A stretch of DNA of 64,000 nucleotides from Methylotenera sp. L2L1 (GTDB lineage: Bacteria; Pseudomonadota; Gammaproteobacteria; Burkholderiales; Methylophilaceae). Of the stretch, positions 34,156 through 37,348 are shown piece by piece; position 1 is the stretch's first letter; each line of letters opens with the position of its first letter. The DNA lies in contig NZ_JQMG01000001.1 in assembly GCF_000744605.1 (NCBI RefSeq), positions 434,001-498,000 of the forward strand, read 5' to 3'. The translations under genes were made by a program, and so were the position numbers. The notes beneath the pieces were generated by a model, which was given only the letters and a program-made list of their open reading frames with translations, was not told where the DNA came from and did not search any database.

Positions 34156-34668
34156 ATGCAAGAAAATCCTTCGCCATGGATCATGAAGTTTGCACCACTC
34201 ATTAAAAGCAACGGTCGCGTGCTAGACCTCGCATGCGGTAAAGGACGTCATGCCATTTGGCTGGCACAGCAAGGTTATCAAGTTGATGCAATAGACCGCG
34301 ACCCAATCGCAACTTCACACATGAAAGATATCGAGAATATCAACGTTTTGATGCTTGATCTTGAAACTGGCGAACTGCCAAAATTCACACACACTTACGA
34401 TGGCATTATCGTTAGTCGCTACCTGCACAGACCACTACTGAAACTGCTAGCTGACTTACTCAACTCTGGCGGCATACTCATCTACGAAACATTCATGAGC
34501 GGCAATGAGCGCTACGGCAAACCGAGCAACCCAGACTTTCTTTTATTGCCAGATGAGCTACTTAACACTTACACACCGTTGCTCAGTATTATTGATTTTG
34601 AACAAGGTGAAGAGCAGGAACCAAGACCAGCAGTGATACAACGTATTTGTGCGAAAAGGGATTCTTAA
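34156..34668 (+). CDS. SAM-dependent methyltransferase (class I)
   Basis: A 170-residue cytoplasmic methyltransferase. Motif I is VLDLACGKGRHAIWLA, followed by VDAIDRDP with the acidic residue that binds the SAM ribose, and a late GGILIYETFM motif. The small size and composition resemble TehB-like or small-molecule methyltransferases, but the substrate is unknown. A 12-base palindrome (34119-34130) lies just upstream; it is AT-rich and probably chance. The following 117-base gap contains the argA promoter region. Confidence 0.8.
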   Translation: MQENPSPWIMKFAPLIKSNGRVLDLACGKGRHAIWLAQQGYQVDAIDRDPIATSHMKDIENINVLMLDLETGELPKFTHTYDGIIVSRYLHRPLLKLLADLLNSGGILIYETFMSGNERYGKPSNPDFLLLPDELLNTYTPLLSIIDFEQGEEQEPRPAVIQRICAKRDS

Positions 34669-34719: not shown

Positions 34720-34766
34720 AAATTGTATTAATTACAATTTTAATCTATATTAATGTAAACATTACA
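34720..34766 (+). promoter_or_regulatory. argA promoter flanked by inverted repeats (candidate operators)
   Basis: A likely promoter is TTGTAT (34723-34728), 17 bases, TATATT (34746-34751). Its -35 lies inside a perfect inverted repeat, AAATTGTA-TTAAT-TACAATTT (34720-34740). Directly after the -10 is a second one, TGTAA-ACA-TTACA (34754-34766), also readable as TAATGT-AA-ACATTA. Centres are about 30 bases apart, near three helical turns. Repressor sites placed like this would block RNA polymerase, and the downstream gene encodes a protein with its own XRE DNA-binding domain. Confidence 0.55.
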
Positions 34767-34785
34767 AATTAACTGGTGTTTAATC

Positions 34786-36402
34786 ATGTCACTTGGTCAT
34801 TGCATTCGCAGCAAACGCAAATCACTCAACTTAACACTACAACAACTTGCCTCCAAAATTGATGCCGATGCTGGCAATCTGTCTCGTATCGAGCGCGGCG
34901 AACTAGGCGTTTCAGAGTCATTGCTACGCAAAATCGCATCAGCGCTAGAAACAACACCTGCGAATCTTTACGCAGAGAGCGATGCCACGACAACACCACA
35001 CCTCACCAATAAAAACCAAGTCAATGAGCAACCCTCCACGTACTTAGCCAAACAAGCGGAATCCGTTAACAGCGCCAGCGCTAAAGATTTTGTGCAGTGG
35101 TTTCGCTCAGCTACGCCATACATCCATGCCTTTGGAGGACGGACATTTGTGATTGCCTTTGGTGGTGAGGTGGTGAGTGACCAACAGTTTATTTCACTCT
35201 CACATGACCTAAACTTATTAGCCAGCCTAGAAGTGAGATTAGTGCTTGTACATGGCTCGCGCCCGCAAATTGAGCAGCGGCTTAAGCGTGACAGCATCGC
35301 CCCACTATTTCACAACGGATTACGCGTGACGGATGATGCTGCGATGGAAGCAGTAAAAGAAGCCAATGGTGCAATTCGTGTAGAGATTGAAGCCTTACTA
35401 TCAATGGGCATTGCCAACTCGCCAATGGCAGGCGCAGACATCCGCGTGGCGAGCGGCAACTTTGTCACAGCAAAACCACTGGGCGTGCATGATGGTGTAG
35501 ACCTTCAGCACACAGGCGAAGTGCGTAAAGTAGATGCGATTGGTATTCAAAAACGCTTAGACGACAACGAGATGGTATTACTATCGCCACTTGGCTATTC
35601 ACCCACAGGTGAGGCATTCAATTTAAGCTTAGAAGACGTAGCAGTGAGTACCGCGATTGCGCTAGATGCAGATAAGCTCATTTTCTTAATGGACTCAGAA
35701 GGTGTGCATAATTTACGCGGCGAGCTACTGCGCGAGATGACAGCAGAGAAAGCTAAAAATCTATTAAGAAATGTACGAGAAACTGAGCAAGCGATCAACA
35801 TCTCTGAAGACGTAACCTATTATCTACCCGCAGCGGTACGCGCCTGTGAACAGGGGGTCGCAAGAACTCATATGATTAGCCGCCACATTGATGGCGCCAT
35901 TATTCAAGAGCTGTTTACACTTGACGGTATCGGCACCATGGTGACCGAACTCAGCTTAGAAAGTATGCGCCAAGCCAACATTGATGATGTAGGCGGCATC
36001 CTAAAGTTAATTGAACCCCTAGAGAACGATGGTATTTTAGTACGTCGCGGTCGTGAGCGGCTAGAAATGGAAATTGACCATTTTCATATCATGGAGCACG
36101 ACAACCGCATTATTGGTTGCGCAGCACTTTACCCGTTTGAATCAGAAAAGACCGCTGAATTTGCATGCCTAGCCATAGACCCTGCATACCGTGGTGGTGG
36201 CCGCGGTGATAAGTTATTTTATTACTGCGCCAATGTAGCCAAACAGTGCGGACTTGAAAGTTTATTCTGCCTCACCACACGTACTGAACATTGGTTTTTG
36301 GAACGCGGCTTCACTGAACAAGGCGTTGAAAAACTGCCAGCGGAAAAACAAAAACTTTACAATTACCAACGTAAATCTAAGGTGTTTAGCAAAACATTGT
36401 AA
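34786..36402 (+). CDS. argA: N-acetylglutamate synthase fused to an N-terminal XRE helix-turn-helix domain
   Basis: Residues about 98-538 are a complete ArgA: an amino-acid kinase-like domain (GGRTFVIAFGGE, VLVHGSRPQIEQRL, SGNFVTAKPLGVHDGVD) that in this family binds arginine as feedback inhibitor, then a GNAT acetyltransferase domain with acetyl-CoA motif RGGGRGD and ending YNYQRKSKV like E. coli ArgA. Ahead of it, residues 5-62 form a classic XRE/Cro-type HTH (LTLQQLASKIDADAGNLSRIERGE), joined by a polar linker of about 35 residues. E. coli ArgA (443 residues) lacks this. The frame is continuous and no internal Met suits a separate ArgA start. The enzyme makes N-acetylglutamate from glutamate and acetyl-CoA; argB follows. 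The fusion may act as an arginine-responsive repressor of its own operon. Confidence 0.93.
   Translation: MSLGHCIRSKRKSLNLTLQQLASKIDADAGNLSRIERGELGVSESLLRKIASALETTPANLYAESDATTTPHLTNKNQVNEQPSTYLAKQAESVNSASAKDFVQWFRSATPYIHAFGGRTFVIAFGGEVVSDQQFISLSHDLNLLASLEVRLVLVHGSRPQIEQRLKRDSIAPLFHNGLRVTDDAAMEAVKEANGAIRVEIEALLSMGIANSPMAGADIRVASGNFVTAKPLGVHDGVDLQHTGEVRKVDAIGIQKRLDDNEMVLLSPLGYSPTGEAFNLSLEDVAVSTAIALDADKLIFLMDSEGVHNLRGELLREMTAEKAKNLLRNVRETEQAINISEDVTYYLPAAVRACEQGVARTHMISRHIDGAIIQELFTLDGIGTMVTELSLESMRQANIDDVGGILKLIEPLENDGILVRRGRERLEMEIDHFHIMEHDNRIIGCAALYPFESEKTAEFACLAIDPAYRGGGRGDKLFYYCANVAKQCGLESLFCLTTRTEHWFLERGFTEQGVEKLPAEKQKLYNYQRKSKVFSKTL

Positions 36403-36448: not shown

Positions 36449-37348
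<900 letters not shown>

Follow-up and report, generated by a model that had tools for sequence, protein, structure and literature searches.

A family-wide fusion of a helix-turn-helix domain to N-acetylglutamate synthase in Methylophilaceae, with a candidate twin operator on its own promoter

The argA locus of Methylotenera sp. L2L1 raises the question of what a DNA-binding domain does at the N-terminus of an N-acetylglutamate synthase (NAGS), and whether the enzyme could act as a repressor of its own gene. The locus lies in a window of 64,000 nucleotides (the whole stretch of DNA that was analyzed), corresponding to positions 434001-498000 of a genome assembled as one contig of 2.64 Mb. A single open frame on the plus strand (window positions 34786-36402; ATG start, zero internal stops) encodes a protein of 538 amino acids, composed of: (i) an XRE/HTH_3 helix-turn-helix (HTH) domain of five helices (residues 1-62; 34786-34971), including the recognition-helix region AGNLSRIE (residues 29-36; 34870-34893); (ii) a variable linker, predicted to be disordered (residues 63-97; 34972-35076); (iii) the amino-acid-kinase-like (AAK) domain of ArgA with its N-terminal helix (residues 98-388; 35077-35949), containing the arginine-binding loop ELFTLDGIGT (residues 375-384; 35908-35937); and (iv) a GNAT acetyltransferase domain (residues 389-538; 35950-36399), all on the plus strand. 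The next gene, argB (acetylglutamate kinase, assigned by NCBIfam; 36464-37348, plus strand), starts 61 bp after argA, and the two probably form one operon in the window. Since argB was found on the same strand, less than 300 bp from the fusion, in 53 of 81 loci, the regulatory target would often be argAB. On the other side, a small methyltransferase gene (34156-34668) separates argA from a gene that we take to be rsmE; among the flanks of the 81 loci, it precedes argA only in L001-L003 and L031-L033, which are the loci closest to the window.

The three domains named in the initial annotation (HTH_3, AA_kinase and GNAT) were all recovered above their cut-offs, with limits agreeing within a few residues, and the open reading frame, Pfam and NCBIfam together confirm an XRE HTH and a complete ArgA in one uninterrupted frame. 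Pfam HTH_3 matches residues 7-59 (E 9.8e-8; 32.4 bits, cut-off 23), and HTH_31 (3-60), AA_kinase (120-364) and Acetyltransf_1 (428-498) also exceed their own cut-offs. The N-terminal portion is thus an XRE/HTH_3 domain both by a score over the curated cut-off and by its five-helix fold. The remainder is classified as a classical NAGS by its full-length match to curated NAGS models, namely PRK05279 (amino-acid N-acetyltransferase; residues 97-538, 699.7 bits, cut-off 344) and TIGR01890 (residues 102-538, 585.7 bits, cut-off 202.85). By both sequence and fold, the best PDB match of the fusion is 2r8v, the NAGS of Neisseria gonorrhoeae (ngNAGS).

The fusion is virtually certain to be real and family-wide. 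It occurs in frame, with matches running from residue 1-3 into ArgA, in every one of the 24 family genera (one genome or more per genus), which removes the concern that it might be an assembly error absent from all relatives. Some match at E <= 0.001, weak and partial matches included, was found in 180 of 187 family genomes; the other seven gave no match, and some incomplete genomes show only part of the gene. In one genus (g26), whose near-complete genomes measure about 1.2-1.4 Mb, most matches initially covered the ArgA part alone, and all 12 frames examined run from the HTH into ArgA. One apparent split gene (G205) was examined and rejected, the break being a run of N in the linker. The best 80 of 246 relatives are labelled Methylotenera, Methylophilus, Methylovorus, Methylobacillus, Methylophilaceae or Methylophilales, or are broadly labelled metagenome-assembled genomes (MAGs). 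One MAG with the fusion among these 80 is labelled Sulfuritalea (L229; JAIPCR010000004.1), a label that is probably wrong. Outside the family, all ArgA matches in 24 genomes from other families of the order begin at residue 84 or later; no HTH was seen by eye in the N-terminal frames from 20 of these genomes; and, among the matches listed for a 398-genome sample of the phylum, the 116 outside-family ArgA matches all begin at residue 72 or later, none reaching the HTH, although weak HTH matches standing apart from ArgA could have escaped this listing. Within the phylum, the distribution of these matches suggests that the fusion stops at the family border.

The HTH looks functional, being conserved, under purifying selection and confidently folded. 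Over 12 close pairs, the ratio omega is lowest in the AAK domain (0.015) and the GNAT domain (0.038), followed by the HTH (0.066) and then the linker (0.31), values from which we conclude that the HTH is under purifying selection. Residues N31, L32, S33, R34, E36, R37 and G38 are identical in all 80 aligned fusions. The 12 g26 loci, which stand outside this alignment, read GNLSRIERG or one-letter variants of it (4 loci), SSLSRIERG (1), GNLSKIEQG (5) and SNLSRIETG (2) at the recognition helix. In the AlphaFold model, residues 1-60 have pLDDT values of 85-94 by blocks, with helices at 2-13, 18-24, 29-36, 44-53 and 58-67. ClgR, P22 C2, SinR and controller proteins are among the matches of the HTH profile to solved structures. 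The linker, at pLDDT 34-36 in blocks 71-100, ranges from 16 to 51 residues between positions 62 and 102 in the 80 fusions. Residues 69-114 all fall under 50, including most of the N-terminal helix of ArgA (99-116; pLDDT about 36-60). Because overall confidence is modest (mean pLDDT 70.8, pTM 0.48), the model does not fix the arrangement of the domains. We also considered an internal start that would yield ArgA without the HTH, and rejected it: a Shine-Dalgarno-like string precedes a GTG codon in 16 of 80 loci, and was judged to be chance because only about 3-5 nt separate it from the GTG and its letters belong to conserved codons (mostly PQEF or PQDF).

A candidate target for this domain was found directly upstream of the gene. 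Two palindromic boxes, ATTGTATTAATTACAAT (box 1; 34722-34738) and AATGTAAACATTACAAA (box 2; 34752-34768), lie with their centres 30 bp apart and were recognized from a pattern, shuffled sequences, genome scans and an operator model. Reading of the operator alignment places a putative -35 element (TTGTAT; 34723-34728, plus strand) within box 1, 17 bp before a putative -10 element (TATATT; 34746-34751, plus strand), defined by conserved columns in 44 operators, which ends where box 2 begins. The -35 element has 8 of 12 consensus matches, below the promoter-scan threshold, so a simple promoter scan does not return this promoter. With box 1 over the putative -35 and box 2 just after the -10, the layout is that of a predicted promoter occluded by a repressor.

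The box pattern (WWTGYN7RCAWW) was devised after viewing these same upstream regions, and the loci are a non-random sample, consisting of the best matches and a set hand-picked for genus coverage. Two boxes 26-36 bp apart were scored against 100 shuffles of the same sequence, with p <= 0.05 as the threshold. Twin boxes scored better than the shuffles in 68 of 79 fusion loci (mean score 19.3 of 20; 53 with a distance of exactly 30), in 8 of 12 g26 loci, and in none of 19 unfused argA loci (mean score 14.1). These sets were reduced from 81 fusion loci by L076 (assembly gap) and L069 (misassigned start codon), from 14 g26 loci by L131 (the same assembly gap as L076) and L144 (argB, not argA), and from 20 unfused loci by L148 (no start found). 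The threshold was missed by 11 fusion and 4 g26 loci; two Methylophilus-like loci, L057 and L058, miss it by far, and the operator model still finds the genome of L058 (G125) at E 0.0016. The operator of g26 is less certain, because its box distances scatter (26-33, one box often lying far upstream) and its recognition helix varies.

Seven positions (T3, G4, C14, T33, G34, C44 and A45) are invariant in 44 aligned operators, whose rows were picked by box score, and the spacer motif TAnnnT (columns 25, 26 and 30), 17 bp after TTGYAT in box 1, is at least 90% conserved in them. Over 51 loci, information amounts to 1.25, 1.05 and 1.23 bits per column in box 1, spacer and box 2, compared with 0.33 and 0.28 in the flanks, the values of the boxes being inflated by the choice of sites by box score. 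Part of box 1 and the spacer would be promoter sequence, whose conservation would be expected anyway.

Residues of the HTH vary together with bases of the operator. The T/C base of the half-sites (L001-L081) correlates with residues 29 and 40, located beside and just after the recognition helix; these residues changed 7 and 2 times on the tree, which gives too few independent pairs for a test. For residue 40, the number of C-type half-sites is 0.5 of 4 with L40 (n = 48) and 2.68 with Q40 (n = 25) in 73 of the 80 rows; with only about two changes of this residue on the tree, significance is out of reach. For the tree and coevolution counts, the 7 rows lacking a clear box pair were left out. The half-site base also tracks GC content weakly (Spearman 0.31).

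Genome scans point to argA as the place of this operator. The strict two-box pattern occurs at one place in the window's own genome, and at 19 places, one each in 19 genomes, among 52 genomes of the genus; 17 of these are at argA, and the reversed-pattern control yielded no place in the same 52 genomes. An operator sequence model was run on 40 family genomes, many of which had also supplied the model, scoring at most 150 first-look candidates per genome, so that weak sites may be missed. All listed places at E <= 0.022 are at argA, in 30 of the 40 genomes; the other ten have no place at this threshold, two of them none at E <= 1. Among 24 unfused genomes, the best place reached E 0.0497 and none was at argA. 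Places away from argA were obtained in G158 (E 0.0266), in the window's own genome (G000; 0.028) and in G010 (0.044), slightly better than the best control value; the neighbors of those in G158 and the own genome include no arginine gene by eye. Because the operator was clearly found at argA only, the fusion seems to regulate a single operon and not arginine genes in general.

Single boxes were less instructive. With two mismatches, the own genome contains 237 matches per strand, equal to the reversed control (237), and a single box is therefore uninformative. A looser single box without mismatches gave 53 places versus 13 in the control, the palindrome differing from its reversed control in other ways too. 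A strict A/T-centred box gave 2-4 places in each of 8 genomes; argA accounts for most of them, and a place in metW recurs. The latter is a palindrome similar to box 2, AATGTAAATATTACAAA, within the opening codons of metW (C1:769172-769188 of the own genome, beyond the window; loci L176 and L306). Of 15 stretches chosen for such matches, 14 fit all 12 tested positions and one fits 11. Among 21 metW loci (19 from family genomes, mostly of other genera, and 2 from outside), 10 were readable by pattern; one (L334) carries the box and nine, including one from outside the family, lack it. The metW box was consequently not counted as part of the argA system; it may be a second operator or a coincidence of coding sequence.

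Could such a repressor respond to arginine? According to the available part of a review of the NAGS family (PMC4490483), the arginine motif of NAGS is E-(L/I)-(F/M)-(T/S)-X-X-G-X-G-T. This motif, K297 and E375 are each present in all 80 fusions, and the motif in 11 of 12 g26 loci; the key Lys and Glu were located through alignment to the PDB chain, assuming a tag of 20 residues. Judged by these residues, the kinase-like domain retains an intact arginine site. The same source describes ngNAGS as six subunits assembled through their AAK domains, in which arginine contacts and moves the N-terminal helix, the particle contracting by ~20 Å along the threefold axis and the ring widening by ~10 Å.

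The initial annotation had further proposed that the fusion replaces an ArgR-type regulator, which the genomes do not support. The Arg_repressor DNA-binding domain (PF01316) was found in none of 61 genomes (the window's own, 36 of its genus and 24 unfused genomes from other families of the order), and the same search was positive in 9 of 14 control genomes. The fusion protein likewise lacks PF01316 among its Pfam matches and is not itself an ArgR. Because unfused relatives are devoid of ArgR too, its absence does not go with the fusion. ArgR is described as highly conserved in many gammaproteobacterial groups and absent in other classes (PMC5343134, available part); given this statement and the lack of PF01316 in fused and unfused genomes alike, ArgR was most likely already missing from the lineage in which the fusion arose. 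As for an arginine-sensing enzyme that also represses transcription, the idea stands as far as an intact arginine site, a conserved HTH and a twin palindrome on its own promoter can carry it, and it does not extend to general arginine regulation, with the operator clearly at argA only.

The explanation that we judge probable is that a single chain serves as NAGS and as repressor of its own argA(-argB) transcription, and the genomic evidence makes binding of the twin operator by the HTH, with repression of argA, very probable. The AAK hexamer would bring HTH domains together in pairs that bind the palindromes. Box 1 would cover the -35 and box 2 the start site, both on the same face of the DNA at a distance of about three turns, and occupation of both boxes would block RNA polymerase, so that argA, and argB where it is adjacent, would be repressed by their own product. 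Arginine would be, less certainly, the co-effector. Because arginine moves the N-terminal helix in ngNAGS, and this helix carries the HTH here, the arginine-bound form would be catalytically inhibited and at the same time a stronger repressor; by this analogy, we lean slightly towards arginine modulating DNA binding. More tentatively, the arginine-sensing hexamer might itself be the arginine repressor: movement of the N-terminal helices would space two HTH pairs to clamp both boxes, and one allosteric event would shut enzyme and gene. If this is true, the whole family controls this step of arginine synthesis without a separate regulator.

A simpler autorepressor is possible, in which arginine plays no part and binding of the HTH to the twin operator only adjusts how much enzyme is made, though we regard it as rather doubtful. 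It agrees with a strict operator found only at argA in the window's genome, and the variable length of the linker and the low confidence of the model in this region argue against a rigid coupling of the arginine site to the HTH. However, the HTH is joined to the very helix that arginine moves in ngNAGS (PMC4490483, available part), and several g26 proteins appear by eye to have a short stretch between HTH and helix, making coupling possible there.

The boxes might instead belong to a separate regulator, the HTH serving another purpose such as oligomer assembly. Fusion and operator each seem to have a single origin, at the base of one family, and their co-occurrence is accordingly a single evolutionary contrast, a family-level event that would suit this explanation as well; palindromes of this kind can also be read by many regulators. 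We nevertheless consider it unlikely, as the boxes are missing at all 19 unfused argA loci, the solved relatives of the HTH include DNA-binding repressors, and a strict twin site found nowhere else in the genome would be unusual for a separate regulator. Least of all do we expect the HTH to be a functionless passenger of a chance fusion: the fast-evolving linker and the varying recognition helix of g26 could be read in this way, but the low omega of the HTH, the recognition-helix residues invariant in 80 of 80 fusions and the retention of the domain in genomes of about 1.2-1.4 Mb make this very improbable.

To our knowledge, it is poorly understood how bacteria that lack ArgR control arginine; for this family of methylotrophs, in which some genomes are very small, the fusion with its operator offers a mechanism that is concrete and testable. 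Should arginine modulate binding, activity and transcription would both be under the control of one allosteric site. The fusion may also be a natural switch that responds to arginine at a defined operator, which could be useful for engineering methylotrophs. Judged by titles and abstract openings, no description of an HTH-ArgA fusion was found among the open-access papers listed by the searches. None of the NAGS types set out in the available part of PMC4490483 (bacteria-like, vertebrate-like, S-, O-, H- and C-NAGS) has a DNA-binding domain, and the word DNA is absent from the main text of this review. The fusion shares its AAK and GNAT domains and arginine motif with the classical bacterial NAGS (ArgA; N. 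gonorrhoeae 2r8v and 3d2p), and the twin operator at its promoter is newly described here.

Among proteins that unite catalysis and regulation, NadR is composed of an XRE HTH, an NMN adenylyltransferase and a kinase, and the DNA-binding and enzyme domains of PutA and BirA are unrelated to those of the fusion. Like the fusion, NadR is a biosynthetic enzyme that bears an HTH at its N-terminus, by which NadR controls genes of the pathway it belongs to; its enzyme family and ligand are different. The most conserved target of NadR is nadA-pnuC, with nadR itself controlled in several genomes only (PMC5343134, available part), whereas the sole clear site of the fusion is its own promoter. PutA and BirA, as proposed for the fusion, combine enzyme activity and direct repression of their own pathway in one protein, as stated in the available part of PMC6978683. 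With ArgR/AhrC, the fusion may share the job of lowering the expression of arginine-synthesis genes when arginine is plentiful; the ArgR regulon comprises about 20 genes per genome (PMC5343134, available part), whereas that of the fusion would be one operon. With an enzyme and a DNA-binding domain in one chain and a candidate site on a gene of its pathway, the fusion would be placed among the enzyme-repressors ('trigger enzymes').
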